A stretch of DNA of 64,000 nucleotides. Origin: an uncultured Lachnospiraceae bacterium. GTDB taxonomy: Bacteria; Bacillota; Clostridia; Lachnospirales; Lachnospiraceae. The notes under the pieces are model-generated. The model was not told the DNA's origin. It ran no database searches and saw only the letters and a list, made by a program, of their open reading frames with translations. The position numbers and the translations under genes are program-made. Shown here one piece after another: positions 5,285 to 30,292 of the stretch; within the stretch, counting starts at the first letter, position 1; the number at the start of each line of letters is the position of its first letter. The DNA lies in the NCBI GenBank assembly GCA_947626395.1, contig CANQRU010000002.1, positions 62,001 through 126,000 on the forward strand, read 5' to 3'.

Positions 5285-5542
5285 GCGGGACAGGCGGGGG
5301 CCGGGGCACATCCCGGGCGCTCATGACTCCGAAGGGAAGTCTTTCTAAATTCAAAAACGCCAGTTTGAGAGCAACGGCAACCTGAGCGAGAATTTCTGAA
5401 GAAATTCTCGCTCAGGTTGCCGCTCCGCCCATGACTTGTGGTCATGGGCGGAGACCCTCAAACTGACGTTTTCTCATTAAGAAAGACTAACCCTTCTCCG
5501 TAAATCGCGCCCAGGATGTGCCCCGGCCCCCGCTTGTCCCGC
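5285..5542 (+). repeat. large structured intergenic element A1
   Basis: About 258 bases that can fold almost completely. The outer arms (5285-5320 and 5507-5542) pair over 36 bases with two differences. The stem continues inward with GAAGGG/CCCTTC, an AA/TAA internal loop, GTCTTTC/GAAAGAC, a TAA/TAA loop, and an AAAACG/CGTTTT region. The top holds two perfect hairpins, 5376-5421 (21-base stem) and 5423-5453 (stem CTCCGCCCATGAC, loop TTGTG). It follows rhaD directly. The second copy is at 5849-6013 in reverse, and distant relatives are at 27360 and 30098. Whether it works as RNA or as DNA is unknown. Confidence 0.85.
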
Positions 5543-5610
5543 TGTGGTGTCGCGTGAGCGAGGTGTCTTGAGATGACTATGCCTCTAACACGTTATAAAA
5601 AGTATGAGTT

Positions 5611-5656
5611 ATTCTCGACTGGAATGAAGGCGAATTCCCGGCTGGAATAGAGATGA
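5611..5656. repeat. two 23-nt imperfect direct repeats
   Basis: Copies at 5611-5633 and 5634-5656 share ATTC, CTGGAAT and a final GA; about 17 of 23 positions agree. Confidence 0.45.
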
Positions 5657-5701
5657 TCTGTTTGTGTAGCTCTGTCTCCTGTTGCTTCATCGATCTCCTG
5701 C

Positions 5702-5840
5702 AAAAACACTGCGAGAAGAAATCTCGCCGATCGCAGAGCGTTACTTTGTGCCGACGTTCGTCTTTCGAAAACATAGCGATAGGAAGCCTTGCCGATCGCA
5801 CTGCGAAACACAGCGAGCAGAAGCCCCGCCGTCTGCGCGA
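5702..5840. repeat. three GCGA-type imperfect repeats
   Basis: Copies at 5702-5740, 5767-5805 and 5806-5840 share AAACA-AGCGA, then AAGCC-CGCCG, then a closing GCG. They lie between the inverted elements A1 and A2. The rest of 5543-5848 shows no credible gene or RNA motif. Confidence 0.6.
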
Positions 5841-5848
5841 TTTGTGGA

Positions 5849-6013
5849 GGAGGGTTAGAGGTTCTTAGGCGCAAAGCGGCCGCCGCCGGGGCCGGAGCCC
5901 CTGACCACAAGTCAGGGGCGGAGCGCAAGCTGAGGGAGAACTCATCAAGAGTTCTCCCGAATTTGACGGTGCCCCGGAGGCGGCCGCTTTGCGTCTTAGA
6001 ACCTCTTCCCTCC
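5849..6013 (-). repeat. large structured intergenic element A2 (inverted copy)
   Basis: Read on the minus strand this is a relative of A1. The outer arms pair from GGAGGG/CCCTCC, then an AA/TAA loop, GAGGTTC/GAACCTC, a TAA/TAA loop, and a 15-base perfect helix of CGCAAAGCGGCCGCC type. The top has two hairpins, at 5934-5958 and 5897-5919, the latter with loop TTGTG (minus strand) as in A1. In that hairpin an A-T pair of A1 is replaced by C-G, a compensatory change. The remaining spacer to 6177 shows nothing recognisable. Confidence 0.82.
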
Positions 6014-6177
6014 GGAACCATGAGCGCAGGCGGCGGGGTTTCCGCTCGCGTACCTTCCGCGACCATGTGCCATCCCATCTATCCCACAAAACAATTCCGT
6101 CCGGCATACCGCGCATTTTACATATTTTCTGGGATTTCTGCAAATTTGTGTCTGTAACATGCCCGGGCAGCCTGCTT

Positions 6178-7002
6178 CTACTGCTCCTTCAGCGCCGCCT
6201 TCACATCCTTACGGAACTGCTTCCACGCGTCCTCATTATCCACGAAATACTTCGGACACCCCTTCCCGTTCACATCGTAGTGCCGGATCACGTCCTTCTC
6301 ATCCAGCTTGAGTTCTTCGCAGAGCCAGGCCGTCAGTTTCACCAGCGAATCATAGGATGCGTCGGTGAATTTACCCGTCTCGTCCGGGTGGCAGACCTCG
6401 ATGGTAACCGTGTCGAAATTCCGCGGCGCGTTGGCGTAGGAGATCTCGCTTACCGGAATGCACTGGATGATTTCGCCCTCCAGGCCGACGATGAAATGGC
6501 TGGAGGAAGACGCCCCGCCCTGCTCCGGATCCTGATCAGCCAGGCTGTCGAAGTACCGCTGGTTGGAATCCGCGGAAGTATTCGGATTGCCTACATAGTG
6601 GACTACGATATTCTTCACTTCACGCATGGATACGTCCGGGCGGGAGAAGATATTCTTGCGCAGAAGCTTCTGTTCGATCCAGTCCGGCGATTTGATCGCT
6701 TTCAGATCCACGGTGTAGGGCTTCTCATATCCCCATATGCGGTAACCGATCCCTACGCCGGCCCCCATTCCGATCAGGAACAGAAGGACCAGGCACAGAA
6801 CGGGAAGAATCTTATCCATGGAAGTACGCTTCCGGCTGCGTGCCCCTGTCCGTGAGAGGCCGGAATCGCCGCCTGTTTCCGGTTTGAAGCGCGGTCGTTC
6901 TGTCTGGGGCCGGGAGGAATTCCCGGCAGTGGTCTTAGCGCCGGTTTCGCTGGCTGCATCCGGCGGGATCCGGTTTATATCATTGCTGTATTCGTCCTGC
7001 AT
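6178..7002 (-). CDS. membrane-anchored N-acetylmuramoyl-L-alanine amidase
   Basis: Predicted peptidoglycan hydrolase of 274 residues that cuts the bond between muramic acid and the stem peptide. A charged cytosolic N-terminus of about 65 residues is followed by one membrane segment (ILPVLCLVLLFLIGMGAGVG), so the enzyme domain faces outward. The amidase_2/PGRP domain fills residues about 110-270, with IVVHYVGNP (first zinc His), SSSHFIVG, the TIEVCHPDE strand and VIRHYDVNGKGCP, which supplies the later His and Cys ligands. The N-terminal ATG follows GCAAAGGAG. It stands alone on the minus strand. Family known, target structure inferred. Confidence 0.88.
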   Translation of the reverse strand: MQDEYSNDINRIPPDAASETGAKTTAGNSSRPQTERPRFKPETGGDSGLSRTGARSRKRTSMDKILPVLCLVLLFLIGMGAGVGIGYRIWGYEKPYTVDLKAIKSPDWIEQKLLRKNIFSRPDVSMREVKNIVVHYVGNPNTSADSNQRYFDSLADQDPEQGGASSSSHFIVGLEGEIIQCIPVSEISYANAPRNFDTVTIEVCHPDETGKFTDASYDSLVKLTAWLCEELKLDEKDVIRHYDVNGKGCPKYFVDNEDAWKQFRKDVKAALKEQ

Positions 7003-7050
7003 ATCTGTGTCTCCTTTGCTGTTCGAAAGATGAAGCCTTTCATTTTTTAT

Positions 7051-7078
7051 ATCATACCATAGTTTCCCTAAAAAACAA
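7051..7078 (-). promoter_or_regulatory. probable promoter of the amidase gene
   Basis: Minus-strand TTGTTT (7078-7073) and TATGAT (7056-7051) with a 16-base spacer, about 50 bases before the start codon. Confidence 0.45.
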
Positions 7079-7143
7079 AATAGTTTTTAAAAGAGGGAAA
7101 TTAGGCAACGTGTTCACAATTTCATTAATTTGGTATATTTTCC

Positions 7144-7172
7144 TTGTAATTTTGACGAATCACGAGTATACT
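7144..7172 (+). promoter_or_regulatory. promoter of the six-gene sugar operon
   Basis: TTGTAA (7144-7149) and TATACT (7167-7172) are spaced by 17 bases, 60 bases before the first start codon. No operator palindrome was recognised. Confidence 0.6.
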
Positions 7173-7231
7173 GAAAGTGCAATGCAATTTGCGGGAATGG
7201 CGTTTAATTTTAAGAAAATGGAGGTGTTCAT

Positions 7232-8389
7232 ATGCCATTAGTACCAATGAAAGCGATCCTGGATGCGACGGAGAAGTATAATTACGCCCAGGGCGCCTTT
7301 AATGTCAATGCAGTGTGTCAGGCGAAGGCCGTCATCGAGGTGCATGAGATGTTCCGCTCGGCGGCGATCCTGCAGGGGGCGGATCTGGCCAATGCGTTCA
7401 TGGGAGGCCGGACCGATTTCGCGAACGGAACTCTGGAGGATAAGAAGAAGGGAGCTCTTAACATCGCCAACGCGGTGAAGAAGTATGCTGTGAACAGTCC
7501 GATCCCGGTGGCGCTGCATCTGGATCACGGCAAGACCTTCGATTCCTGCGCGGCTGCGATCGCGGGCGGATATACGTCCGTCATGATCGACGGCTCCTCG
7601 CTCCCGTTTGAGGAGAATATGGAACTGACCCGCGAGGTAGTCAAATACGCCCATGAGAGAGGCGTTACCGTAGAAGGCGAACTGGGCGTGCTGGCCGGAG
7701 TGGAGGATCATGTATTCGCGGCCACGTCCACATATACGAACCCGCTGGACGCGGTTACATTTTTCAAGAACACAGGCGTGGACGCCCTGGCCATCAGCTA
7801 CGGCACGAAGCACGGCGCCAACAAAGGCAAGGACACGGTCATCCGCAAGGAGATCGCGATCGCCACGAAGGAGTGCATGATGCATGAAGGCATCGAGGGA
7901 ACTCTGGTAAGCCACGGTTCCTCTACGGTGCCGCAGTATATCGTCAGCGAGATCAACGCCCTTGGCGGCGAGATTCACGACGCTTACGGCATTAAGAAGG
8001 AACAGCTGAAGGAAGTTTCCAAGCTGGGCATCCGCAAGATCAATGTGGATACGGACATCCGCCTGGCTGTAACCCGTAACCTGCGTGAACTGTTCCGGGA
8101 TAAACCGGCTAAGCGGGAGAGCGCGAGTATCGGCCCGATCTACGAGCTGCTCCTTAAGAATCCGTCCCAGTTTGATCCGCGCGTATTCTTCCCGCCGATC
8201 ATGGATACGGTCATGTACGGCAATGTGCCGGACGACGACGTGGCGCTGGTGGTGGACTGCATCGAGCGCGGCGTCCGCGAGGTAGTCGGCACATTGATCG
8301 TGGAATTCGACAGCGTGGGCAAGGCACCGCTGATCGAGACGGTATCGCTGGACGAGATGGCGGAGAGGTATCGTAAGAAAGGAATCTGA
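7232..8389 (+). CDS. class II ketose-bisphosphate aldolase (FbaA/GatY-like)
   Basis: Zinc-dependent aldolase, 385 residues, first gene of the operon. It should split a ketose 1,6-bisphosphate (fructose or tagatose type) into two triose phosphates. Seen are ALHLDHGK near residues 94-100 with a zinc His, a VTVEGELGVLAG segment, AISYGTKHG, LVSHGSS and the phosphate-binding RKINVDTDIRLA. The protein is about 75-100 residues longer than usual class II aldolases; the extra part (about 295 onward) is C-terminal and unrecognised. GGAGGTG precedes the ATG. Because the operon also has NagA and NagB-like genes, the natural substrate may be tagatose or fructose bisphosphate; sequence alone does not decide. 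Confidence 0.87.
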   Translation: MPLVPMKAILDATEKYNYAQGAFNVNAVCQAKAVIEVHEMFRSAAILQGADLANAFMGGRTDFANGTLEDKKKGALNIANAVKKYAVNSPIPVALHLDHGKTFDSCAAAIAGGYTSVMIDGSSLPFEENMELTREVVKYAHERGVTVEGELGVLAGVEDHVFAATSTYTNPLDAVTFFKNTGVDALAISYGTKHGANKGKDTVIRKEIAIATKECMMHEGIEGTLVSHGSSTVPQYIVSEINALGGEIHDAYGIKKEQLKEVSKLGIRKINVDTDIRLAVTRNLRELFRDKPAKRESASIGPIYELLLKNPSQFDPRVFFPPIMDTVMYGNVPDDDVALVVDCIERGVREVVGTLIVEFDSVGKAPLIETVSLDEMAERYRKKGI

Positions 8390-8451
8390 TCATAATAAAT
8401 GGTTTGGCCGATGGAAAAGGACGGCAGGAACAGAGAACAGGGGGAATCAAG

Positions 8452-9615
8452 ATGGGTTTCAATATTCTGGTAGCGCACGGCGGCGGTCCTACCGCTGTGA
8501 TCAATACGTCCCTGCAGGGCGTGGTGGAAGCTGCCCGGGCGTCGGGCAGGGTGGATAAGATCTATGCGGCCCGGTTCGGTGCGGAGGGACTTCTGAAGGG
8601 CGATCTGATCGATCTGACGGATGTGCCGGCGGAGGTGATCAGCCGCCTGTCCCATACGCCGGCGTCGGCGATCGGCTCCTGCCGCAGGAAACTGACGGAG
8701 GCGGATTACCCGGTGGTCATCGAGATGCTTCGCCGGTTCGATATCCAGGCATTTTTCTATAACGGCGGCAACGATTCCATGGATACCTGCCATAAGGTGA
8801 ATGAGCTGGCGCTGAAGGAGGGCCTGGATGTCCGGGTCATCGGGATCCCGAAGACCATGGACAACGATCTGGTGGTGACGGATCACTGTCCGGGATTCGG
8901 CAGCGCGGCCAGATACGCGGCGATCAACGCGGCGGAGCTGGCGCTGGACGCGTCGGGTCTTCCGATCCATGTGGTGGTTATGGAGCTGATGGGACGGAAC
9001 GCGGGCTGGGTGACGGCGGCAAGCGCCATGGCGTCCAGGCTGACAGACTGCGAGCAGCTGGTATATCTGCCGGAGGTGCCCATTGACGTGGATCAGATGC
9101 TGGCGGATATCGAGAAAGGCTATGCGAAGGGCCGGGGGCTTCTGGTAACGGTCAGCGAGGGCGTTCGGGATATTCACGGCAAGCCGCTTGCGGATACCGG
9201 TATCGTGGACGGCTTCGGCCATGTGATCCCCGGCGGCGTGGGGCAGCATATTTCCGATCTGATCGTGCAGAATACAGGCCTGAAATCCAGGGCGGAGAAG
9301 CCGGGACTTCTGGGACGTACCAGTATTCCCTATGTGTCGCTGTCAGACCGGAAAGAGGCTTATGAAGTAGGAAGCGAAGCCGTGAAGGCGGCGCTTCGCG
9401 GCGAGAGCGGATATATGGTGGCGATCGAGGCCGACAGAAGCGGCGGGAAATATACCAGCAGGACGTTCCTGACACCGCTTGCGGGCGTGGCCAACGCGGA
9501 GAAGAAATTCCCGATGGAGTGGATCATCGACGGCAGCCGGATCGCGGACGAGTTCTTCGACTACGCGAATCCGCTGATGGGCGGGGATTTCCCGGAATTC
9601 GCACTGCTGCGGTGA
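8452..9615 (+). CDS. PPi-type 6-phosphofructokinase
   Basis: Phosphofructokinase family enzyme of 387 residues that adds a second phosphate to a ketose 6-phosphate. Two positions suggest pyrophosphate rather than ATP as donor: GGNDS (residues 105-109), where ATP enzymes have GGDGS, and PKTMDND (133-139), where ATP enzymes have PGTIDND. The Asn in GGNDS is itself unusual, since PPi enzymes normally have GGDDS. The start at 8452 is chosen for AGGGGGA just upstream and for the immediate NILVAHGGGPTAVIN core. It lies 62 bases after the aldolase. Substrate choice (fructose 6-P, tagatose 6-P or another) is open. Confidence 0.85.
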   Translation: MGFNILVAHGGGPTAVINTSLQGVVEAARASGRVDKIYAARFGAEGLLKGDLIDLTDVPAEVISRLSHTPASAIGSCRRKLTEADYPVVIEMLRRFDIQAFFYNGGNDSMDTCHKVNELALKEGLDVRVIGIPKTMDNDLVVTDHCPGFGSAARYAAINAAELALDASGLPIHVVVMELMGRNAGWVTAASAMASRLTDCEQLVYLPEVPIDVDQMLADIEKGYAKGRGLLVTVSEGVRDIHGKPLADTGIVDGFGHVIPGGVGQHISDLIVQNTGLKSRAEKPGLLGRTSIPYVSLSDRKEAYEVGSEAVKAALRGESGYMVAIEADRSGGKYTSRTFLTPLAGVANAEKKFPMEWIIDGSRIADEFFDYANPLMGGDFPEFALLR

Positions 9616-9650
9616 TCTTAAATACTTGAAATGTGAGAGGATGATTCGTT

Positions 9651-10487
9651 ATGAAACATATTTATCTGAACCTGAAACGTTTTGATGTGCCGGTGGAGCT
9701 GGGCGGCGTGAACCGGCTGGCGCCGGTGGCGGACTGGGGAAGGACTGTCGTGGAGTCCACGCAGGAAGGCCTTAAGAAATACGATCCGGCGCAGGTGGAA
9801 TTCGTGCAGTTCCTGCCGGAAGCCCATCTGCTGGGGGCGGCCGCGGCGCTTAGTGAAGACAGTCCGGTGATACTGGGCAGCCAGAGCGTGTTCCGCGAGA
9901 ATACGGCGGTCGGCGGCAATTTCGGCGCGTTTACGACGAACCGGCCCGCTTCCATCGTGAAGGCCCTGGGCTGCAGGGCGACGCTGATCGGCCACTGCGA
10001 GGAGCGCAACGACAAGAAAGGGATCCTGGCGGAAGCAGGAGTTACCGATATGTCCGCGGTGAACCGTCTTCTGAATAAAGAGATCAAGTGCGCCATCGCC
10101 GCGGGGCTCAAGGTGGTCTACTGCATCGGCGAGACCAGCGACGAACAGCCCCAGTGGCAGCGGGTGCTGGGGGAGCAGCTGAAGGTTGGTCTTGACGGCG
10201 TGGATAAGTCTCAGGTCGTCATTGCCTATGAGCCGGTCTGGAGCATCGGCCCAGGCAAGACCCCGGCGGGGAAGGACTATATCACGATGATCGCCCGTTT
10301 CGTGAAGGAACAGACCGGCGGTATGGACGTGGTCTACGGCGGCGGTCTGAAATCCGATAACGCGGCGATGCTTGCGTCTATCGAGGAGATCGACGGCGGC
10401 CTGATCGCGCTGACCAGGTTTGCCGGCGAGATCGGCTTCTACCCGGATGAATATCTGGAGATCATCCGGCTGTATCTGGGAAAGTAA
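9651..10487 (+). CDS. tpiA: triose-phosphate isomerase, divergent
   Basis: Interconverts dihydroxyacetone phosphate and glyceraldehyde 3-phosphate, 278 residues (usual about 250). The catalytic set is intact: the N-terminal NLK, His115 in IGHCEERN (usually IGHSERR), and Glu194 in AYEPVWSIGPGK. The phosphate loop YGGGLKSDNA replaces the common GGSV type. It follows the phosphofructokinase by 35 bases. A dedicated, divergent TIM inside a sugar operon, downstream of an aldolase and PFK, suggests the operon carries its own lower-glycolysis steps. Confidence 0.88.
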   Translation: MKHIYLNLKRFDVPVELGGVNRLAPVADWGRTVVESTQEGLKKYDPAQVEFVQFLPEAHLLGAAAALSEDSPVILGSQSVFRENTAVGGNFGAFTTNRPASIVKALGCRATLIGHCEERNDKKGILAEAGVTDMSAVNRLLNKEIKCAIAAGLKVVYCIGETSDEQPQWQRVLGEQLKVGLDGVDKSQVVIAYEPVWSIGPGKTPAGKDYITMIARFVKEQTGGMDVVYGGGLKSDNAAMLASIEEIDGGLIALTRFAGEIGFYPDEYLEIIRLYLGK

Positions 10488-10500
10488 TATGAGGCTTTGT

Positions 10501-10603
10501 GCCGTGCCGTCCGGCGGGAGCCGGACGGCACGGCGGCGCATGAGGTCACGCCCGGATTATGCGGGCGAAGGTATGAATGCCGTGGCCGCCGGGCGGCACG
10601 GCA
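10501..10603 (+). other. three intercistronic hairpins between tpiA and the LarA-like gene
   Basis: A perfect 15-base stem with a 4-base loop (10501-10534), a small CGCCC stem (10549-10567), and a TGCCGTG/CACGGCA hairpin with inner GCCGCC pairing (10578-10603). None is followed by a T-run, so they look like mRNA processing or stability structures, or an attenuator, rather than a standard terminator. Confidence 0.6.
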
Positions 10604-10657
10604 ATGTATGAGATCGCTTCAGTATGCGAGAATGAAGATTAAGGAGAGATAAACAAG

Positions 10658-12151
10658 ATGAAACTGGATTTTGAGTATGGAAATGGTTTTATGAGCGCAG
10701 AGCTTCCGGATACCACCGACGTATTTATTCCCGGCGAGACGGTTCCGGATCCGCCCTGTCTGCCGCAGGACTGGGACAGCCTGTATGCGGCCACCCTTGA
10801 CAGCATCCGCCATCCCATCGGCATGCCGACCCTGACGGAACTGGCAAAGCCCGGCGATAAAGTGGTCATCGTGATCCCGGATATCGTCAAGGGCGGCAAC
10901 CAGCCTACCTCCCACCGCAAGGTGGCGATCCGCGCCTGCTTAGACGAGCTTTACAGCGTGGGCGTCGAGAAGAAGGACATCCTTCTTCTGTTCTCCAACG
11001 GCCTTCATCCCAGGGCTACGGTGCCGGAGATGCGGACGATCCTCGGCGAGCAGTTATTTAATGAATTCTATCCCAGCGGGCAGATCACCAGCCACGACAG
11101 CGAGGATTACGATCATCTGGTGGATCTGGGCTATACGGAGGAAGGCGACCATGTGATCATGAACAAATACGTCTTCGACGCGGACGTTCCGATCCTGATC
11201 GGCCATACCCAGGGCAATCCCTACGGCGGCTATTCCGGCGGCTACAAGCACTGTGCGACCGGCATCAGCCACTGGAGGAGCATCGCGACCCATCATGTGC
11301 CGGATGTGATGCACAAGCCGGATTTCGTACCGGTGTCCACCTCCAGCGTCATGCGCCACAAATTCGACCGCCACGGCATGTTCATGGAAGAGAAGATGGG
11401 AAAGAAGTTTTTCTGCTGCGACGCGGTCCTGGATACCAAATCCCGCCAGATCGAGATCAATTCCGGCTACGCCGCCGAGATGCAGCCCATCAGCTGGAAG
11501 ACGGCGGACAAGCGCACCTACGTTCACTGGGCGGAGAAGAAATACGACGTGGTGGTCTTCGGCATGCCGACCAATTTCCACTACGGCGCCGGCATGGGAA
11601 CGAACCCGATCCAGATGATGCAGGCATTGTCGGCCCAGGTCATCCGTCATAAGAGAGTGCTGGCGGATCACTGCGTGTTTATCGTGCCGAGCATCTGCGA
11701 CGGCTGGTTCCACGACGAGAGGTGGCCCTACCTGCGGGAGCTTTACGAGATGTTCCAGCATGATTCCATGAACATCCTGCCGGATATGAACCGCTACGGC
11801 GAGTATTTCGCGACCAATGAAGAATATATCCGCAAATACCGTTTCGCCAACGCGTTCCATCCGTTCCATGGATTCTCGATGATGAGCTGCGGCCACCTGG
11901 CGGAGGAGCACACCAGCGCCATCTATATCGTGGGCGCAAGGGAGCCGGGCATTGCCAGAAGCATGGGGCTTAAGACCAGGGCTACCGTGGAGGAAGCGCT
12001 GGCGGACGCGATGAAGAAGTATGTGGGCCCGAACCCGAATATCCTGGCGCTGCCCAAGACGTTCACGACGGCGGCGGTCCATCTGTGCATGAAGGATCCG
12101 GCGGAGAACAGCCATACCAGAGACGGACAGGACCATCCCTGCTGCGGATGA
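10658..12151 (+). CDS. LarA-family (DUF2088) nickel-pincer racemase/epimerase homologue
   Basis: Protein of 497 residues related to lactate racemase LarA. The family uses a nickel-pincer nucleotide on a Lys to racemise or epimerise 2-hydroxy acids. Recognised are VVIVIPDIVKGG near the N-terminus, FSNGLHPRAT, and the cofactor region GGYSGGYKHCATG (about 188-200) with the anchoring Lys in place. Later His-rich segments (HHVPDVMHKP, NAFHPFHGF) fit metal binding. The C-terminus ends in DHPCCG. Cofactor-maturation genes larB, larC and larE are not in this window. It sits between tpiA and the NagB-like gene, so a sugar-acid or sugar-phosphate substrate is conceivable. Substrate unknown. Confidence 0.8.
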   Translation: MKLDFEYGNGFMSAELPDTTDVFIPGETVPDPPCLPQDWDSLYAATLDSIRHPIGMPTLTELAKPGDKVVIVIPDIVKGGNQPTSHRKVAIRACLDELYSVGVEKKDILLLFSNGLHPRATVPEMRTILGEQLFNEFYPSGQITSHDSEDYDHLVDLGYTEEGDHVIMNKYVFDADVPILIGHTQGNPYGGYSGGYKHCATGISHWRSIATHHVPDVMHKPDFVPVSTSSVMRHKFDRHGMFMEEKMGKKFFCCDAVLDTKSRQIEINSGYAAEMQPISWKTADKRTYVHWAEKKYDVVVFGMPTNFHYGAGMGTNPIQMMQALSAQVIRHKRVLADHCVFIVPSICDGWFHDERWPYLRELYEMFQHDSMNILPDMNRYGEYFATNEEYIRKYRFANAFHPFHGFSMMSCGHLAEEHTSAIYIVGAREPGIARSMGLKTRATVEEALADAMKKYVGPNPNILALPKTFTTAAVHLCMKDPAENSHTRDGQDHPCCG

Positions 12152-12178
12152 GAACTTATGGAGGGAATGGAATCAATT

Positions 12179-13000: not shown

Positions 13001-13059
13001 ACTGCTGAGAAGGCGGCGGCAAGGCGTATTGCAGGCATAGCAGCATATGAAGGAGAGAA

Positions 13060-14211: not shown

Positions 14212-14212
14212 G

Positions 14213-14256
14213 AAAATGCCTGTTTCTGCCGGATATTGGCGGGGACGGGCATTTTT
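14213..14256 (+). terminator. terminator of the sugar operon
   Basis: A long imperfect stem starting AAAATGCC and ending GGGCATTTTT, with TCTGCC/GGCGGGGA pairing inside, starts just after the nagA stop codon and ends in five T. Confidence 0.7.
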
Positions 14257-14276
14257 GCGCGATTCACGTTTCTGCA

Positions 14277-14305
14277 TTGACTTTAAAGAGGAGGAAAGCT
14301 ATAAT
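14277..14305 (+). promoter_or_regulatory. sigma-A promoter of gtrA-yfhO
   Basis: TTGACT (14277-14282) and TATAAT (14300-14305) with a 17-base spacer, an almost ideal promoter, 32 bases before the gtrA start. Confidence 0.75.
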
Positions 14306-14337
14306 TGGAGAATACTGGGTTTTTATGAGGTGATGGC

Positions 14338-14811: not shown

Positions 14812-14820
14812 TAGAAGAAG

Positions 14821-19208: not shown

Positions 19209-19209
19209 G

Positions 19210-20485: not shown

Positions 20486-20561
20486 TATTAACCAGAAGTA
20501 CCAAGTTGAGTAGGGTGCAAGCCTGAAAAAATATAAAAAATCACAAGGAGGTATGAGAGCA

Positions 20562-21500: not shown

Positions 21501-21512
21501 GAGGTGGCATAG

Positions 21513-22379: not shown

Positions 22380-22420
22380 CAGAAAGCATGGCGCTGGGCG
22401 CGGTGAAGAACCGGCAGAAA
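22351..22420. repeat. 35-nt tandem duplication over the permease stop codon
   Basis: Copies at 22351-22385 and 22386-22420 agree at 32 of 35 positions (core GGGCGCGGTGAAGAAC). The second copy is outside the gene; its stop codon equivalent has changed to CGG. Confidence 0.85.
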
Positions 22421-22495
22421 TCATCTCGATATATTGTCCTGCGGAAGCGGGATCGTATATACATATTTTTTAATCCAATCAAGGAGGAATGATTT

Positions 22496-24208
22496 ATGAA
22501 AATGCGTAAAGTTATGGCACTGTTCATGGTCGCTTCCATGACGGCTGGACTTCTGGCCGGCTGCGGCGGCGGTTCCGGCAGCGGCAGCGGTACGACCACG
22601 ACGGCAGCGGCCGGCGGCAGCGGCGAGACAGCGGCGGCCGGCGGCGAGGCGGCGGCTGATGATTTAACCCCCATTACCTTTGAGTATTACAACGCGGACG
22701 GAAGAAACGACGTCTGGGATAACCCGGTCGGCAACGCGATCACCGAGGCGACCGGCGTTACCTTAAAGATCAGCTACCCGGTATCTTCCACCGGCGATCC
22801 CGGCGAGGACATCGCCCTGATGATCGCCAATGACGATTATCCGGATCTGATTTATTCCAAGCAGTCCGTTACCGACCTGTATGAGGCCGGCGCCCTGATC
22901 GATATGAGCGATCTGATCGACCAGTACGGACCCAACATCAAGAAGATGTACGGCGACGAGTATGACAAGCTGAGATGGGGTTCCGGCGACGACGGTATCT
23001 ATCAGCTGTCCTATGCAGGCGTCCGCGCGCAGACCTTAAGCTCCGGCGGTACCTGCCAGATCCAGTTCGCTGTTCTGGCGGAGAACGACTACAAGTATCC
23101 GACCACCCTGGACGAGTATGAGAAGATGATCAAGGATTATCTGGCGGCTCATCCGACGACGCCCGACGGTCTTGACATGATCGGTATCAGCCAGGTGGCT
23201 TCCGACTGGCACTGGATGATCACCCTGGGCAACCCGGCCGGCTTCATCGCCGACGCGCAGCCGGACAACGGTCAGTGGCTGGTTGATGAGAACAACAACG
23301 TTACCTACAAGCATGCGAGCGACGACGAGAAGGAATACTTCCGCTGGCTGAGCCGTATGTACGACGAGGGCATCCTGGATCCGCAGTTCGCGACCCAGAC
23401 CGAGGAAGACTACATCGCGAAGCTGGGCACCGGCCGTGTTGTGGCTATCACCGACGCCAACTGGCACTACGGTCCTGCTGAGCAGGTGCTGATCGCCGAT
23501 GGTAAGGTTGATCAGACATACTGCGGTCTGCCGGTGACCTTAAGGGCTGACCAGAAGGCTCCGTCCCTGTTATATCAGGGCCTGCAGGTTGGCTACGGCC
23601 TGGGCATCTCCAAGAGCTGCCAGGATCCGGTCCGTGCCGTCAAGTTCCTTGACTACCTGTGCTCCGATGAGGGTGCGAGACTTTACAAGTGGGGCATCGA
23701 GGGCGTGAACTACCAGATCGACGACGAAGGCAACTGGTATCGTACTCCCGAGGAGATCGCCGCTTCCCAGTCGGATCCCGACTACTCCAAGAAGACCGGT
23801 ATCGGCAACTACACCGGATTCCCGATCTACGGCGACGGCGCTGTGGATGAGAACGGCAAGCCGTATACCCCGAATACCCGCGAGTCTGTAGCCGCTGAGT
23901 ACAATGCGGCGCAGAAGGCTGCCTGCGAGGCCTGGGGCGTAGAGCTTCTGGTCGACATCTTCCCGCAGGCTGACGAGTTTGAGACTCCCGAGTTCTCCCC
24001 GCTTTGGGCATACGCGACTCCGCAGGAGATCGTAGATCTGCAGAACAAGCTGGATGAGATCGCATGGCCGGGCATCGTTAAGTGCATCACCGAGCCGCTT
24101 GACAACTTCGACGCCAACTGGGAGACCATGGTTCAGACGCTGAAGGACAACGGTCTGGATGAGGCGAACGAGAAAGAGACCGCGTTCCTGGCTTCCAAGC
24201 TGCAGTAA
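22496..24208 (+). CDS. extracellular oligosaccharide-binding lipoprotein (LplA-like)
   Basis: Substrate-binding lipoprotein of 570 residues. A signal peptide ends with LLAGC, Cys23 being the lipid-modified residue. A Gly/Ser/Thr-rich linker of about 30 residues precedes the two-lobed binding domain. Its size (over 500 residues) and neighbours place it with LplA/YtcQ proteins, which bind plant or mucin oligosaccharides. CAAGGAGGAATG supplies a strong ribosome site, fitting the high expression expected of binding proteins. The ligand is inferred from the neighbours to be a xylose-decorated glucan oligosaccharide. Confidence 0.9.
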   Translation: MKMRKVMALFMVASMTAGLLAGCGGGSGSGSGTTTTAAAGGSGETAAAGGEAAADDLTPITFEYYNADGRNDVWDNPVGNAITEATGVTLKISYPVSSTGDPGEDIALMIANDDYPDLIYSKQSVTDLYEAGALIDMSDLIDQYGPNIKKMYGDEYDKLRWGSGDDGIYQLSYAGVRAQTLSSGGTCQIQFAVLAENDYKYPTTLDEYEKMIKDYLAAHPTTPDGLDMIGISQVASDWHWMITLGNPAGFIADAQPDNGQWLVDENNNVTYKHASDDEKEYFRWLSRMYDEGILDPQFATQTEEDYIAKLGTGRVVAITDANWHYGPAEQVLIADGKVDQTYCGLPVTLRADQKAPSLLYQGLQVGYGLGISKSCQDPVRAVKFLDYLCSDEGARLYKWGIEGVNYQIDDEGNWYRTPEEIAASQSDPDYSKKTGIGNYTGFPIYGDGAVDENGKPYTPNTRESVAAEYNAAQKAACEAWGVELLVDIFPQADEFETPEFSPLWAYATPQEIVDLQNKLDEIAWPGIVKCITEPLDNFDANWETMVQTLKDNGLDEANEKETAFLASKLQ

Positions 24209-24258
24209 TTTACGGCCTCTTGTTCGGACAGCATCTGTAATTACATAAGAGAAGACCT

Positions 24259-24296
24259 TGGGGCCTGATATCTTAATGGTGTCAGGCCCCTTTTAC
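24259..24296 (+). terminator. terminator after the binding-protein gene
   Basis: Stem GGGGCCTGA paired with TCAGGCCCC, followed by TTTTAC. Partial read-through to the GH3 gene 90 bases on is possible. Confidence 0.78.
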
Positions 24297-24387
24297 TAAC
24301 ATTTTATCAGGTTTTTCCGCGGCCCATGGCATGATTGTGCCTGATATGACACGGAAAGAATCCGCATGAGAGAGGAGAATTGTGGTG

Positions 24388-27300
24388 ATGAAGAAGAATA
24401 CACCGTTCTGGGACGCGTCGCTGCCGATCGAGAAGCGTCTGGACTGGCTTCTTGCCGAGATGACGATCGAGGAGAAATTAAGCTGCCTGGCGTCCAGTGT
24501 TCCGGATCTGGAGCGGATGGGGATTCCCGGCATGAACGTGGGCGGCGAAGCCGCCCATGGCGTGGAAGCGAGAAATGACCAGAACGAACTGAAGATCCCG
24601 GAGCAGACTACATCCTTCGTTCAGCCCATCGGCATGAGCGCGACCTGGGATCCGGAGATCATCAAGAAGGCCGGAGAGGTCACCGGAACCGAAGCAAGAG
24701 TGATCTACCACCGCCATCCGGACCGGGGCCTGAGCCGCTGGGCGCCGACCATCGATCTGGAGCGGGATCCCCGCTGGGGCCGGAACGAGGAGGGCTACGG
24801 TGAGGATCCGGTGCTGACCGGCGCCATGGCGTCCGCCTATATTCAGGGCATGCAGGGCGACGATCCCCATTATCTGCGTATTGCCAGCACGCTGAAGCAT
24901 TTCTACGCCAATAATGTGGAAGTGGGACGGGGCTGGAAGAATTCCTCCGTGGATCCCCGCAATGAATACGAGCTCTATCTGGAGCCGTTCCGCCGCGCGA
25001 TCCAGGACGGCGGCGCGGAGGCCATTATGACGGCTTACAATAAGATCAACGGCACTCCCGGCATCCTTAACCGCGAAGTGCAGGATATCTTAAAGGATCA
25101 GTACGGTTTAAAGCATGCGGTCAGCGACGGCGGCGCCATGAGCATGGTGGCGGAGGCCCATCATTATTACGGCACCCATGCGGAGACGGTGGCGAGCGCG
25201 ATCCGGGCCGGCGTGGACGCCATGTCCGAGAATAAGGACGGCGTGACTGCGGCGGCGAAGGAAGCCTGGGAGCTGGGGCTGATGACCGAAGCGGAAGTGG
25301 ACCGGGCCGTCCGCAATATGTTCCGCAGCAAGCTTCGTCTGGGCATTTACGACGAGCCGGTGCGCAATCCCTATGACAATGTGACTGAGGCGGATCTGTG
25401 CTCGAAGGAGAACGAAGAGATTTGCCGTCAGATGTCGCGGGAGACGGTCGTTCTTTTGAAGAATGAAAATGGCGCGCTTCCGCTGGACGCGTCGATGCCG
25501 GCGAAGGATCTGGCTATTATCGGGCCGCTTGCGGACGCCTGGTATCAGGACTGGTATGGCGGCGAGCCTCCGTATAAGAGGACGCTGAAGGACGGCGTGG
25601 CGGAGATCCTGGGAGAGGGAAGCGCCTGCGTGGACGGCTGGGACCGGGTGGTATTTAAGTACGGCGATAAGGCGGTGGCGGTCGCTGACGACGGGACGCT
25701 GACGCTTTCGGACGAGCCGGATGTGTTCGTGAAGGAGGCCTGGGACGGCGGATATTTCGCGCTGCGCAGCGTCCGCACCGGGAAACTCTGGAACCTGCGG
25801 ATGCCGATGGGACCCGGCGATGCGGCGGAAATGGGACGGATCGCGGCGGAGAAGGAGCAGGCGTTCGACTGGTTCGTGGTGGAGATTTTCCATCTGTTTG
25901 AGGAAGCGCAGGAAAGCGGCGTAACGGTAACGATCACCGACCGTTTTGGCGCGCCCCTGACCGTGGACGCGGCCGGCGCTGTCCGTTCCGTACGCGGGGC
26001 GGAGCCTGCGAAGTTTGTCATGGAAGTGGTTTCTTCCGGTATCGAGGAAGCGAAGAAAGCGGCGGCTGCGGCGAAGAAAGTGGTGCTGGCGCTGGGCTGC
26101 CATTCCCTGATCGACTGCAAGGAGACGCTGGACCGGGAGTCGATCGCGTTCCCGGCTCCGCAGCAGAGACTTTTTGACGCGGTGACCGAAGTGAAGCCTG
26201 ACGCGGTGGTGGCGTTATTTACCAACTTCCCCTATGCGATGAGCGGGATCCAGGAGAAGGCGCCGGCGATCCTGATGAGCGCTACCGGGGCCCAGGATAT
26301 GGGCTGCGCGATGGCGGAGACGCTGTTTGGACTGAACGCTCCGGCGGGGAGGCTGAACCAGACCTGGTACCTGGACGACAGCCAGCTGCCGGATATCGAT
26401 GATTACGATATCATTAAGGGCGGAAGGACTTACCGGTATTTTGAGGGCGAGGTGCTGTATCCTTTCGGTTACGGACTCACCTATACGGAGTTCGATTATT
26501 CGGATTTGAGCGTGAGACTTGTGAATTTCAAAGATCTGAAGGTTTCTTTGAAGCTGACGAATACGGGGAAATGTGTGAGCGACGAGGTGGCGCAGATCTA
26601 CGGTGAGGCTCCGGCTTCCAGGGTGAAGAAGCCGCTTCGGCAGCTGCTGGCGTTTGAACGTGTGAAGGCGGTGGAGCCTGGCGAGAGCCGTGTGGTGGAA
26701 TTCGTGGTGCCGGTGGAGGAACTGCGTTTCTACGATACGATCAGCGGGACGCTGATGGTGGAGGAAGGACTTTATCAGATCTTCGCGGGTTCTTCCAGCG
26801 TTGACCAGCGACTGACGGCGGAAGTAGAGGTTCCGGGGCTGCATCCGGGGAAGCGTGATCTGACGAAGAAGATCCGTGCCGACCATTATGATGATTATGA
26901 GAATATGCTGCTGACCGAGGGACAGTTCTCGTATAAGGCGGTGACGCAGGCGGATCCTTCGAAAGAAGGAGTGCTGCGGTATGGTGACTGCGTGCTGGGA
27001 GATGGCGCGAAGGCGTTTGTGCTGCATTTGAAGAGCGGCGAGGGGTGCAGCGTGAAGGTGCTGGTGGACGGAGAGTCTGTGGCAGCCTGGGAAGGGAATA
27101 CGAGGGAGTACCGGCAGGGAGGATTCCCGGCGATGGATGAGAAGGGGCGGAGAGAAGCCGCTCTGCAGGCGAAGACTTGGCCGACCGAGTATACCGATGT
27201 TGTCATGCCGATTATGGTTCCGATCGCTGAAAAAGATTGCCATACGGTGGAAATTCGGGTGGCGGGAGACATCCTTTTGTGTTATTATTATGTTCGATAG
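24388..27300 (+). CDS. glycoside hydrolase family 3 enzyme, long form
   Basis: Probable beta-glucosidase or beta-xylosidase of 970 residues, cytosolic (no signal peptide). The N-terminal barrel has RWAPTIDLERDPRWGRNEEGYGEDP and KHFYANN. The nucleophile is Asp247 in VSDGG, where most GH3 enzymes have SDW. The second GH3 domain starts near 355 (ETVVLLKNENGALPL) and is interrupted at about 415-525 by an inserted beta-rich module. The fibronectin-like domain is near 700-800, and about 130 extra residues follow with no recognised fold. The start at 24388 (ATG) follows AGAGGAG; GTG codons at 24382 and 24385 are alternatives. It is first of three glycosidase genes. Confidence 0.88.
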   Translation: MKKNTPFWDASLPIEKRLDWLLAEMTIEEKLSCLASSVPDLERMGIPGMNVGGEAAHGVEARNDQNELKIPEQTTSFVQPIGMSATWDPEIIKKAGEVTGTEARVIYHRHPDRGLSRWAPTIDLERDPRWGRNEEGYGEDPVLTGAMASAYIQGMQGDDPHYLRIASTLKHFYANNVEVGRGWKNSSVDPRNEYELYLEPFRRAIQDGGAEAIMTAYNKINGTPGILNREVQDILKDQYGLKHAVSDGGAMSMVAEAHHYYGTHAETVASAIRAGVDAMSENKDGVTAAAKEAWELGLMTEAEVDRAVRNMFRSKLRLGIYDEPVRNPYDNVTEADLCSKENEEICRQMSRETVVLLKNENGALPLDASMPAKDLAIIGPLADAWYQDWYGGEPPYKRTLKDGVAEILGEGSACVDGWDRVVFKYGDKAVAVADDGTLTLSDEPDVFVKEAWDGGYFALRSVRTGKLWNLRMPMGPGDAAEMGRIAAEKEQAFDWFVVEIFHLFEEAQESGVTVTITDRFGAPLTVDAAGAVRSVRGAEPAKFVMEVVSSGIEEAKKAAAAAKKVVLALGCHSLIDCKETLDRESIAFPAPQQRLFDAVTEVKPDAVVALFTNFPYAMSGIQEKAPAILMSATGAQDMGCAMAETLFGLNAPAGRLNQTWYLDDSQLPDIDDYDIIKGGRTYRYFEGEVLYPFGYGLTYTEFDYSDLSVRLVNFKDLKVSLKLTNTGKCVSDEVAQIYGEAPASRVKKPLRQLLAFERVKAVEPGESRVVEFVVPVEELRFYDTISGTLMVEEGLYQIFAGSSSVDQRLTAEVEVPGLHPGKRDLTKKIRADHYDDYENMLLTEGQFSYKAVTQADPSKEGVLRYGDCVLGDGAKAFVLHLKSGEGCSVKVLVDGESVAAWEGNTREYRQGGFPAMDEKGRREAALQAKTWPTEYTDVVMPIMVPIAEKDCHTVEIRVAGDILLCYYYVR

Positions 27301-27359
27301 CAGTATGCACGACAGCCGCTATATATGTTAGCGGTTTGATGCAGAGTCGCGTGAGGTCC

Positions 27360-27562
27360 GCGCGGAGACTCCGGCCCTTCTCAGGTTCGGGTTTTCTCGC
27401 GGGAAAATCCTAAGCTCACAACGATTTGCTAAAAGCGGCACGGAAAATGGGCAACTCGCTTCGCTCAGACAATCCCATTTTCCGTGCCAACGCAAACCGT
27501 TGTTCGCTAAGGATTTTCAGCCGCTCGCAAAACTCACCTGAGATGGGCCGGAGTCTCCGCGC
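27360..27562 (+). repeat. large structured intergenic element B1
   Basis: The outer arms 27360-27386 and 27536-27562 pair at 26 of 27 positions. Further in are GAAAATCC/GGATTTTC, a TAA/TAA internal loop, a TC/TC loop, ACAACG/CGTTGT, and a 15-base hairpin (27437-27451 with 27474-27488) with the 22-base loop containing CTCGCTTCGCTCA. It is a relative of element B2 at 30098. The AA/TAA loop of the other elements is missing here. Together with flanking bases it fills the 328-base gap before the GH31 gene. Confidence 0.82.
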
Positions 27563-27628
27563 TGGGATTTTCGGCAGCTGAGGATGAGGTGCGGAAACTG
27601 TGAATGTAGGAAAAGGAGATCGGTAAGT

Positions 27629-30052
27629 ATGAAATTCCACAATGGTTGCTGGCTAATGAAGGAGGGCGTGTCGTGGTTTGGGCCGCAGCACGTGTATGAG
27701 ACCCATATTGCGGAGAAGGAGGTGCGTCTGGTGGCGCCGACTTCGCGGATCCGGGGGAAGGGGGATACGCTGGGCGGGATTAATCTGACGCTGCGGATTA
27801 CCTCGCCGGCGCCGGAGGTTCTGCGGGTGCAGACGTATCATCATAAGGGCGTACAGAAGAAGGGGCCGGAGTTTGATCTGCAGAATAATGCGGAGAAGGC
27901 GCTTTGTGTGGCTGAACAGGGGAATCTCCTGACGGTCGGAAGCGGAAGCTTAGGGCTTGTTATTGACCGGGAGAACTGGTCTATGACGTTTGTGCGGGGT
28001 TGCAAGCCGGAAGGACAGATCGGGACGGCTGCGTGTGTACAGGCTGCGCAGACAGATGCCTGCGGCGCGGCGGTTCCGCAGATGGAGGTCATCACGAAGG
28101 CGGGGCAGCGGGACCTGGGTTATGTGAAGACTAATTGGACCGGCATGGCTTACGATAAGGGCGGGGACGCCTGGATGTGTCAGCAGCTGGGGCTTTCGGT
28201 GGATGAGAATATCTACGGTATGGGCGAGCGGTTCACGCCGTTCGTAAAGAACGGCCAGTCGGTATCCATCTGGAATGAGGACGGAGGCACGAGCACGGAG
28301 CAGGCGTATAAGAACATTCCGTTCTATCTGTCGAGTAAGGGCTACGGCGTCTTTGTCAACCATCCGGAGCGGGTGGAGTTCGAGGTGGCTACGGAGCAGG
28401 CCAGTAAGCTGGCGTTCGCAGTGGAAGGCGAGAGCCTGGATTATTATTTCTTCAATGGTCCGACGATGAAGGAAGTCCTTATGCGGTATACGGATCTGAC
28501 GGGGAAGCCGGCGCTGCCGCCGCAGTGGACCTTCGGGCTGTGGCTGTCTACGTCGTTCACGACTAATTATGACGAGCAGACGGTGATGAGCTTTATCGAC
28601 GGCATGCATGAGAGAGGGATCCCGCTGTCGGTGTTCCATTTCGACTGCTGCTGGATGAAGGAATTCCACTGGACGGATTTTCTGTGGGACAGCCGGGTGT
28701 TCCCAGACCCGAAGGGGATGATCGCCCGGATCAAGGAGAAGGGCGTGAAGATCTGCGTCTGGATCAATTCCTATGTGGGACAGGAATCGGTGCTGTTCGA
28801 CGAGGGTGCGGAGAAAGGGTATTTCTTAAAGCGGCCTAACGGCGATGTGTGGCAGTGGGATATGTGGCAGCCGGGGCTGGCGATCATTGATTTCACCAAT
28901 CCTGAGGCGTGCCGCTGGTATCAGGAAAAGCTTGAGGAGCTGCTGGATATGGGTGTGGACTGCTTTAAGACCGATTTCGGCGAGCGGATCCCGACGGACT
29001 GCGTCTACCATAACGGCGCGGATCCGGTGAAGATGCACAATTTCTATACGTATCTGTACAATAAGACCGTGTTCGACCTGCTGGAGCGGAAGAAAGGACG
29101 CGGCGAGGCGGTGTTGTTCGCGCGGTCGGCGACGGCGGGCGGGCAGAAGTTCCCGGTTCACTGGGGCGGCGACTGCTGGTCGGATTATGAGTCCATGGCG
29201 GAGAGCCTGCGGGGCGGCCTGTCGCTGACCAGCAGCGGATTTGGATTCTGGAGCCATGATATCGGCGGCTTCGAGAATACGTCGACGCCGGATGTGTATA
29301 AGAGGTGGGCGGCGTTTGGCCTTCTGTCTTCCCACAGCCGGCTGCATGGCAGCGGTTCTTACCGGGTGCCGTGGCTGTATGATGAGGAGGCCGTGGATGT
29401 GGTGCGCTTCTTTACGGATCTGAAGCACAGCCTGGTGCCGTATCTGTACAGCAGCGCGGTGAATACGTCGCGGACCGGCGTGCCGATGATGCGCAGCATG
29501 GCGATGGAATTTACGGATGATCCCAACTGCCGGTATCTGGATAAACAGTATATGCTGGGAGACAGTTTGCTGGTGGCGCCGATCTTTAATGATCAGGGGA
29601 TCGCGCAGTATTATCTGCCGGCGGGGAAATGGACTAATTATCTGACCGGAGAGACGGCGGAAGGCGGCGTGTGGAGGAAGGAGAAGCACGGGTATCTGTC
29701 GATTCCGCTGTGGGTGAAGGCGGGAAGCGTGATCCCGGTCGGGAAGAAGTATGAGCGGGCGGAATATGAGTTCGCGGGGAATCTGGAATTTAAGGTGTAC
29801 GGGCCGGTTGAGAATGTCGAATTTTGCGTTATACAGAAGGGGGCGGAAGCGGCGCGATTGAGGCTTGCGGTGGAAGATGGGCGGCTTGGCGGTGCCATTG
29901 CCGGGGCGAAAGGGTGTACGGTTCGGCTGGTGGACGGTATTGTTGATGGTGTGCTGACGGTTGACAGTGTTCCGAAGATTGATGGTGTGACAGCGGCGGC
30001 GGATGGCGGCGATATTGTGCTATATATTGAGAAGGATGAAGTAGTGTTCTGA
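27629..30052 (+). CDS. GH31 alpha-xylosidase (YicI-like)
   Basis: Exo-acting alpha-xylosidase of 807 residues that removes terminal alpha-1,6-xylose from xyloglucan-type oligosaccharides; cytosolic. The catalytic nucleophile is Asp449 in KTDFGE, and the acid/base Asp lies in GGDCWSDYESM (about 512-522), both in the YicI form. FGLWLSTSF and HFDCCWMKEF shape the sugar pocket. C-terminal beta domains complete the usual layout. The start at 27629 follows AAGGAGATCGG. Structured elements B1 and B2 flank it on both sides in the same orientation. An alpha-glucosidase activity is a less likely alternative. Confidence 0.9.
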   Translation: MKFHNGCWLMKEGVSWFGPQHVYETHIAEKEVRLVAPTSRIRGKGDTLGGINLTLRITSPAPEVLRVQTYHHKGVQKKGPEFDLQNNAEKALCVAEQGNLLTVGSGSLGLVIDRENWSMTFVRGCKPEGQIGTAACVQAAQTDACGAAVPQMEVITKAGQRDLGYVKTNWTGMAYDKGGDAWMCQQLGLSVDENIYGMGERFTPFVKNGQSVSIWNEDGGTSTEQAYKNIPFYLSSKGYGVFVNHPERVEFEVATEQASKLAFAVEGESLDYYFFNGPTMKEVLMRYTDLTGKPALPPQWTFGLWLSTSFTTNYDEQTVMSFIDGMHERGIPLSVFHFDCCWMKEFHWTDFLWDSRVFPDPKGMIARIKEKGVKICVWINSYVGQESVLFDEGAEKGYFLKRPNGDVWQWDMWQPGLAIIDFTNPEACRWYQEKLEELLDMGVDCFKTDFGERIPTDCVYHNGADPVKMHNFYTYLYNKTVFDLLERKKGRGEAVLFARSATAGGQKFPVHWGGDCWSDYESMAESLRGGLSLTSSGFGFWSHDIGGFENTSTPDVYKRWAAFGLLSSHSRLHGSGSYRVPWLYDEEAVDVVRFFTDLKHSLVPYLYSSAVNTSRTGVPMMRSMAMEFTDDPNCRYLDKQYMLGDSLLVAPIFNDQGIAQYYLPAGKWTNYLTGETAEGGVWRKEKHGYLSIPLWVKAGSVIPVGKKYERAEYEFAGNLEFKVYGPVENVEFCVIQKGAEAARLRLAVEDGRLGGAIAGAKGCTVRLVDGIVDGVLTVDSVPKIDGVTAAADGGDIVLYIEKDEVVF

Positions 30053-30097
30053 GATTAGGGGAACGGCAGGCTTGATGTGGGCGCGGACGGTCCGCGT

Positions 30098-30292
30098 CCG
30101 GCGGACTGTCTGCATGTTCCTCAGGATTCAGGACGGAAGTGCTTCTAAGTTCACAGCAATTTGTTAAAAGCATCACGAAAAATGGACAACTCGCTTCGCT
30201 CAAACAAGTCCATTTTTCGTGATAACACAAATTACTGTTCACTAAGAAGCACTAACCGTTCTGAAATTCGGAACCTGCGGACAGTCTGCCGG
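30098..30292 (+). repeat. large structured intergenic element B2
   Basis: Outer arms pair with about 30 matches over 38 positions. Inside are GGACGG/CCGTTC, an AA/TAA loop, GTGCTTC/GAAGCAC, TAA/TAA and TC/TC loops, then a 16-base perfect hairpin (30172-30187 with 30208-30223) with loop AACTCGCTTCGCTCAAACAA. The hairpin loop is nearly identical to that of B1, while the stem has changed on both strands (CACGGA/TCCGTG against CACGAA/TTCGTG). Confidence 0.84.

Follow-up and report, generated by a model that had tools for sequence, protein, structure and literature searches.

Giant imperfect palindromes of Lachnospiraceae form a dispersed family that often follows stop codons and may act as terminators

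Results

Four long palindromes in the window

The window is a 64,000-nucleotide stretch of contig CANQRU010000002.1 from an uncultured Lachnospiraceae bacterium. Four long imperfect palindromes lie beside its genes (all element ends were read by eye):

5270..5554, plus strand: class A element, from its left end GGGCGCGAGAGGTACGCG (5270) to the last base of its right end CGCTGTGGTGTCGCG (5554)
5337..5338, plus strand: AA strand of the AA/TAA loop in class A, opposite 5488-5490
5346..5348, plus strand: left-hand TAA of the motif around the conserved A.A mismatch in class A, opposite 5478-5480
5478..5480, plus strand: right TAA of the same motif, opposite 5346-5348
5488..5490, plus strand: TAA strand of the AA/TAA loop, opposite 5337-5338
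5555..5800, no strand: spacer of the inward-facing class A/class B pair, with degenerate partial right-end copies inside (by eye)
5801..6064, minus strand: class B element, pair partner of class A
27347..27575, plus strand: class D element, 3' of a GH3 gene (24382-27300)
30079..30310, plus strand: class C element, 3' of a GH31 gene (27584-30052)

The class A element starts 3 bases past the stop codon of a class II aldolase gene (4439-5266), and the class B element turns its left end towards a convergent amidase gene (6178-7002). An earlier note on this DNA had proposed that the four share one fold plan, and all of them fold as claimed. The predicted energies, for the elements starting at 5285, 5849, 27360 and 30098, are -196.1 kcal/mol (z -21.5), -120.0 kcal/mol (z -12.2), -125.3 kcal/mol (z -14.6) and -103.5 kcal/mol (z -14.2), respectively, and in each case 0 of 200 shuffles folded as well. 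The helices that had been listed (GTCTTTC/GAAAGAC, GAGGTTC/GAACCTC, GTGCTTC/GAAGCAC and GAAAATCC/GGATTTTC) are present in the sequence and in register. The positions of the elements also hold, but their extents had been drawn too short: copies have common ends further out (approximately TCGCGGnAGGTACGCG and CGCTGnGTTnTCGC), so the elements are longer than described. The first two elements (5270-5554 and 5801-6064) form an inward-facing pair, which had been missed.

Each element was said to carry a loop of TAA opposite TAA. The site is conserved, but it is not a 3x3 loop; it consists of one A.A mismatch with a U-A pair before it and an A-U pair after it. Classes A and B contain an extra interruption, CTCATGnnTCCG opposite TCCnnAAATCGC, that was absent from the earlier list.

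One dispersed family with conserved interruptions

The four elements are members of a single family of imperfect palindromes with the character of a dispersed repeat. We built a search model from 18 of 22 aligned copies (4 were dropped), and found the further copies that the earlier note had called for, both in the same genus and in 12 other genera. The source genome holds 29 copies, and carriers have up to about 30 each. Among the matches listed, at least 10 of 25 same-genus genomes (the source genome included) have the element, the 12 further genera all belong to Lachnospiraceae and are patchily occupied, and no match fell outside this family in the genomes sampled. Our genus set comprises 148 copies; the other 38 of 186 matches were dropped, each being, to judge from its position, the shadow of a listed copy on the other strand. 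Hairpins of the family are mostly about 240-360 bp long and reach 548 bp; the median over 147 of the genus copies (one was omitted for its short flank) is 237 bp. The end consensus is TACGC...GCTG, and the ends in genome G293 resemble those of the window's genus.

The earlier note had not recognized the family. No Rfam family matched the window at gathering thresholds, and a permissive search of 5200-6100 and 27300-30400 gave at best miRNA models (best E 1.4e-05) that scored far under their thresholds (34.6 of 65 and 42.3 of 211), which we took for matches to a long hairpin. The class A element had no blastn match in plasmids and phages, and one gapped pattern had none in viral contigs. A literature search over titles and the beginnings of abstracts returned no description of such a palindrome family.

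The claim that interruptions are conserved while helices change was borne out. In the alignment of 22 copies (MAFFT, with an RNAalifold structure), 49 of 61 pairs vary on both sides, and the A.A mismatch is present in 137 of 148 copies from the window's genus and in 16/16 inspected copies from other genera; pairs a few positions away vary freely. Those 16 come from 18 aligned rows, two of which were second copies of loci already counted. Across them, conservation is higher in internal-loop columns than in the stems (0.63 vs 0.52; permutation p 0.0004), and the AA/TAA loop, which the earlier note had likened to the UAA/GAN motif, persists in just some of them.

Arm matching at the DNA level

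Covariation in this family is massive. In the 22-copy alignment 95.6% of cells pair, compared to 67.7% after column shuffles and 39.5-44.3% when slid by 1-3 columns, although the structure was drawn from the same alignment and these figures are biased towards it. Within G293 (20 of 25 matches counted), the left arm agrees over its outer 60 nt with the copy's own right arm at a median of 0.93 (range 0.50-0.98) but with other copies' left arms at 0.55 (maximum 0.80); cores agree at 0.81.

From conserved loops with changing helices the earlier note had proposed a functional RNA or an RNA-folding mobile element. In the first case, transcripts would carry the elements as hairpins in 3' UTRs, where binding or processing would go through their internal loops. 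The covariation and the greater conservation of internal loops speak for this idea. However, wobble pairs are not preferred when arm mismatches are counted by letter identity: G.U numbers 90 vs 158 for A.C in the 147 genus copies, 28 vs 45 in 29 copies from other genera, and 28 vs 35 over 1915 columns in the 20 G293 copies, whose outer arms differ between copies. In 54 distinct tRNAs the same count is 69 vs 0, although this control favors G.U, since ARAGORN picks the arms. Since the arms differ between copies yet match within each copy, with no G.U excess by letter identity, correction at the DNA level is indicated, and the data point to arms kept matching in DNA, for example by template switching. 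Covariation of this kind can arise from double changes that template switching makes in the DNA, as PMC8794818 describes; that work deals with RNA genes, unlike the dispersed repeat seen here. With arms seemingly matched in DNA, strong covariation is by itself not evidence of RNA, which weakens the step from covariation to a functional RNA.

Some counts point the other way. In a structure-fitted alignment, 26 clean columns hold 53 G.U and 32 A.C among 3846 lettered cells, and comparisons of similar copies over all identity bins give 615 differences between Watson-Crick and G.U against 412 between Watson-Crick and A.C. Copies that share an orthologous site are dependent data points. This small G.U excess may reflect some RNA-level selection on the elements. 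Copies at least 98% identical differ by 17 single and 2 double changes, which argues that arm correction is not immediate.

Orientation and the terminator slot

A left gene lies within 1.5 kb in 145 copies and is co-oriented in 96; 73 copies have at most 100 bp between this gene and the model core, and the left end of the element often follows directly after the stop codon. Single copies between tandem genes run along transcription in 24 cases and against it in 11. Both the 3' location and this bias would fit a transcribed RNA as well as a terminator. Pairs between tandem genes speak against both, as one member runs antisense to transcription. Weighing this with the wobble counts and the lack of an Rfam family above threshold, we regard a functional RNA as unlikely.

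Neighbors within 3 kb face inward (plus then minus) in 45 of 47 cases in the window's genus, and none face outward; the exceptions are two plus-plus neighbors 1.3 and 2.5 kb apart. These are palindromic units in alternating orientation, a BIME-like arrangement. In a different genus, the two members of a close pair (G254:C30) both lie on the minus strand.

The aldolase-amidase junction of the class A/class B pair differs among genomes. In G009 it contains a terminator-like hairpin running into TTTTT, which aligns with the right arm of the G002 class A element (0 of 5000 letter shuffles aligned as well) and, judged from this alignment, looks like a shrunken copy of the element. The same junction in G021, G013 and G012 has other hairpins with T runs (by eye). 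The elements themselves have a long stem and a T-rich but imperfect tract; the G009 hairpin fits an intrinsic terminator. The tract 3' of the stem is weak (T at 0.62-0.70 at four positions) and is missing in the window's class A copy. A scan that detects only loops of 3-8 found terminator-like sites about as often as in shuffles (2 vs 1.5, 1 vs 0.5 and 0 vs 0.5).

Signs of mobility

The dispersed copies, the likeness of their ends between G293 and the genus of the window, the facing pairs and the patchy spread over genera are also what a non-autonomous REPIN- or MITE-like element would leave, its folded single strand recognized by a transposase acting in trans. The genes between one pair are A+T-richer, consistent with this. 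Extrahelical bases set strand choice in attC and IS200/IS605 ends; by analogy, the mismatches could supply strand choice here.

Orthologous sites also vary in occupancy: no element lies at the site of class D (27347..27575) in G004 or of class C (30079..30310) in G021. However, among 23 locus groups that span at least two genomes, most compared sites are common to several species, with losses (several sites in G002, G009, G013 and G018 among the matches listed were left out). The clean absence in G004 resembles a deletion between GCG repeats, with the right end retained, and the sites compared showed no target site duplication and no clean pre-insertion site.

We found no trans-acting enzyme that would account for the spread. 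The Y1 transposase (PF01797) was rejected as a partner, as it does not track the elements in same-genus genomes: it was not found in 6 of 10 carriers (G002, G004, G009, G013, G018 and G021; 80-93% complete), and six genomes that have it (G005, G007, G010, G011, G015 and G019) lack the element among the matches listed. Nor did we see an autonomous copy within a 2.4 kb pair interior (G000:C8), which holds an EamA gene, a gene without a Pfam match and a tRNA_bind gene. Six ORFs between copies 5 kb apart in G087 (kinase, PHP, ABC transporter, GntR, polysaccharide deacetylase) include no recombinase. A mobile element is compatible with the explanation that we favor below, but we hold it to be somewhat improbable.

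Relation to known systems

A REP unit is short, at about 20-40 nt, and bears a tetranucleotide of the GTAG type; ERIC is an imperfect palindrome. In integron attC sites, with their boxes RYYYAAC and GTTRRRY, the palindromic arms vary and certain unpaired bases are conserved. The present elements share this mix of free arms and fixed unpaired bases, but their end consensus differs from the attC boxes and the loci compared contain no cassette arrays, so we rejected attC. Like REP, BIME and REPIN sequences, they are intergenic palindromic repeats in many copies; unlike REP and REPIN, they are several times longer, lack a conserved arm sequence, carry conserved mismatches and are not tracked by a Y1 transposase. 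We rejected REP/REPIN with RAYT on the hairpin length, the end consensus and the six carriers without PF01797. BIMEs hold REPs in alternating orientations (PMC2817692). ERIC (RU-1), according to PMC2759123, is a MITE-like intergenic repeat of 127 bp at multiple places in enterobacteria. Our elements are likewise intergenic imperfect palindromes, and are set apart by description, with free arms and a longer hairpin.

Discussion

On balance, we think that these elements are a new family of giant REP/BIME/ERIC-like imperfect palindromes of the Lachnospiraceae that occupy the terminator slot and are perhaps terminators. As the DNA replicates, template switching or repair of the hairpin would keep the arms matching, and the interruptions, chiefly the A.A mismatch, would persist because they are required by a protein or by the fold itself. 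Transcribed from its left end, an element would serve as an intrinsic terminator of unusual size, and two facing elements would halt transcription from both sides. Copies may formerly have been spread by a candidate trans-acting enzyme. By analogy with BIMEs, the elements might instead be chromosome-organizing sites bound by a putative protein. The inverted pairs between genes and the sites common to several species would suit such a role, which we nevertheless consider very unlikely.

A bolder reading, to which we give rather little credence, treats the elements as giant palindromes of folded DNA. A putative enzyme would read the in-register A.A mismatch and the other conserved interruptions and copy the element to places after stop codons; replication would rewrite the arms until only the interruptions were recognizable throughout the family, and the host would use the copies as two-sided terminators.

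This family seems to be a natural example of overwhelming covariation that DNA-level correction of the arms explains better than RNA function does. It is therefore cautionary for covariation-based RNA discovery, and can serve it as a test set. The A.A mismatch is what arm correction leaves unerased, and a putative recognizer is thus searchable. Finally, one locus, the aldolase-amidase junction, ties a dispersed palindrome to an ordinary terminator.

A family of imperfect palindromes with covarying stems

The earlier note described four elements in the window that share a plan of helices and internal loops. All four, inspected by sequence and folded, pair as stated. They are giant imperfect palindromes, which we call, for convenience, class A (at 5285), B (5849, minus strand), C (30098) and D (27360). 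BLAST with three of them as queries (5285, 30098 and 5849) returned many relatives within the same genome. Aligned in one orientation, 22 copies have common ends, common interruptions and covarying stems. Both sides have changed in 49 of 61 pairs, and the covariation score is 0.706, compared to 0.192 for shuffles and ~0.1 when partners are slid, with the structure derived from the same alignment that was scored. From 18 of these copies we made a covariance model for the core, which identified 29 copies in the window's genome once opposite-strand palindrome shadows and two fragments were set aside, and a fifth class surfaced in this search. The original observation is real and extends beyond what had been claimed for it.

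Searching related genomes with such a model, as had been proposed, yielded further copies. Among 41 genomes around the window's, 10 of the 25 from its genus match at E 0.001, its own included, and none of 16 genomes from other families of the same order did so at that threshold. Within the same family, matches at 1e-6 came from 15 of 397 genomes, representing 13 of 334 genera, in a scan with stricter filters that scored just five candidates per genome; when 11 selected genomes were scored in full, 10 had 1-25 matches each and the other, G019, had none. Under the same strict filters, an insensitive class-wide draw of 391 genomes, some of them from the same family, returned the window's own genome as its sole match. 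A gapped exact pattern found 34 stretches in named genomes, all in bins titled "uncultured Lachnospiraceae bacterium isolate Lapin-...", in which we take "Lapin" to mean rabbit. Copies from other genera keep the same interruptions with different arms, such as GCTCATGGTTCCG opposite ACAAATCGC in G293, a genome of another genus. Letter-by-letter inspection covered 30 loci, including only some of the weak matches. The literature searches turned up no description of this palindrome family.

The interruptions are conserved

Conservation is higher in internal-loop columns than in stem columns (0.63 vs 0.52, permutation p 0.0004) across 16 copies drawn from 12 other genera, in an alignment fitted to the model by which the copies were found. 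The strongest conserved feature is a single A.A mismatch flanked by two U-A pairs, previously read as TAA opposite TAA. It is present in 137 of 148 genus copies and in all 16 elsewhere; the 11 genus exceptions include one T-A, one G.T pair and five copies in which the left base is lost. Both flanking pairs are nearly fixed, and pairs a few positions off vary freely. Because the mismatch is left unrepaired inside a palindrome that is kept paired elsewhere, it is probably needed, perhaps in the folded strand or perhaps, in linear DNA, as a pair of direct CTAAG sites.

Copies stand in a terminator's place and face inward in pairs

Among the 145 copies with a left neighbour gene within 1.5 kb, as called by an in-house codon score, that gene is co-oriented in 96, with a median of 71 bp to the model core. 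Of the single copies between tandem genes, 24 lie along transcription and 11 against it; among the 30 loci inspected letter by letter, the figures are 9 and 2, one of the latter in G008, a genome of the same genus. Consecutive GH3, GH31 and GH3 genes in the window (24382-33095) have elements in both gaps.

The aldolase-amidase junction, where the window has an inward-facing A-B pair, is conserved in readable relatives. G002 has one class A copy there, the G004 contig begins within one, and in G009 a short hairpin leads into TTTTT. The 3' half of this hairpin aligns with the class A right arm of G002 (equalled by 0 of 5000 letter shuffles) and of the window's genome, G000 (1 of 5000), and 102 and 31 of 5000 shuffles were as good against the respective left arms. 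From these alignments, we read the hairpin as a putative shrunken copy of the element. For the junctions in G021, G013, G001, G012 and G018, the number of shuffles that did as well as the best match was 351, 87, 630, 445 and 997 of 2000, so that no relation to the element is demonstrated there. By eye, G021, G013 and G012 carry hairpins with T runs, G001 has a hairpin without a clear run, and the G018 junction is just ~30 bp. This comparison among relatives places the element in a terminator's position; direct signs of termination are weak.

Neighbouring copies within 3 kb of each other (47 cases from 148 fetched copies in 9 genomes) are oriented plus then minus in 45 cases, plus-plus in two (1.3 and 2.5 kb) and minus then plus in none. 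Spacers between model cores measure 57-537 bp in 44 pairs and ~2.4 kb in one, and those compared at unrelated sites showed no conservation between them. At window 5700-5830, the spacer of the A-B pair contains, by eye, partial and degenerate repeats of the right end of B. The longest spacer lies at G000:C8, in an interval with these features:

L080 (fetched locus, G000:C8), 3582-5468: three genes in an A+T-richer stretch, inside the inward-facing pair with ~2.4 kb spacer between rsmG and parA
L189 (fetched locus, G009), 2510-2989: acetyltransferase-like ORF upstream of parA, adjoining a class A copy

Three genes lie in the C8 spacer (EamA, tRNA_bind and one that matches no Pfam family), where G+C is 39.6% compared to 47% on both sides; the EamA protein is just 137 aa. 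By eye, G012 has a decayed pair in the same interval, G018 has a single degenerate copy, G002 and G021 have pairs involving another class, and G013 lacks any copy. G009 has the class A copy and acetyltransferase-like gene, and the interval is just 74-96 bp in G008, G023 and G041.

Loss and possible fragility

With elements masked, 23 groups of loci cover at least two genomes, and 12 of 101 loci have no partner. The D element is cleanly absent from G004, where right-end sequence is retained, a pattern resembling a deletion between short repeats; G021 lacks the C element. No target duplication was seen at the sites examined, and no enzyme responsible for spread was found. Several elements are flanked, by eye, by tandem copies of their end sequences, which would fit fragile palindromes. 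Tandem degenerate right-end copies follow the class C element (window 30296-30400), and the equivalent place in G012 has about five copies of a ~37-bp unit (both by eye). Palindromes of the size found in G293 are unusually long for stable bacterial DNA: at two loci there, L284 and L290, the arms span 163 and 174 aligned bases, and hairpins reach 548 bp. Of the 93 genus contigs carrying a fetched copy, 21 have one less than 1.5 kb from the contig end, as if the palindromes broke the assembly.

Pairing appears to be maintained mainly at the DNA level

The earlier note favored a functional RNA or an RNA-folding mobile element. A single RNA strand that had to pair would be expected to tolerate G.U and avoid A.C. 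Aligning arms by letter identity, which favors neither, gave 90 G.U, 158 A.C and 350 other mismatches in 147 genus copies, the last figure including the conserved interruptions, and 28, 45 and 47 in 29 copies from other genera. All model columns, some misaligned between classes, gave 88 G.U and 157 A.C, and 20 G293 copies (1915 columns) gave 28 G.U, 35 A.C and 24 transversions (G.U vs A.C p 0.45). The 26 clean model columns, in an alignment that accepts G.U, had 53 G.U, 32 A.C and 77 transversion mismatches. The functional-RNA reading is weakened by the letter-identity counts, which show no G.U preference, and retains the G.U excess of the clean columns.

Differences between copies of at least 80% identity, summed over bins of copy pairs that are not independent of one another, were WC-GU in 615 cases, WC-AC in 412 and WC-other mismatch in 760. 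These counts resemble a raw mutation spectrum more closely than they do the 69 G.U to 0 A.C seen in 54 tRNAs, a control biased towards G.U. In G293, the left and right arms of one copy agree at a median of 0.93, whereas the median for left arms compared between copies is 0.55 (cores, 0.81); this high agreement within copies and low agreement between them indicates that both arms change together. Template switching during replication has been described as a mechanism for such paired-arm changes (PMC8794818). We conclude from these comparisons that pairing is probably maintained mainly at the DNA level, and that a weak RNA component is possible.
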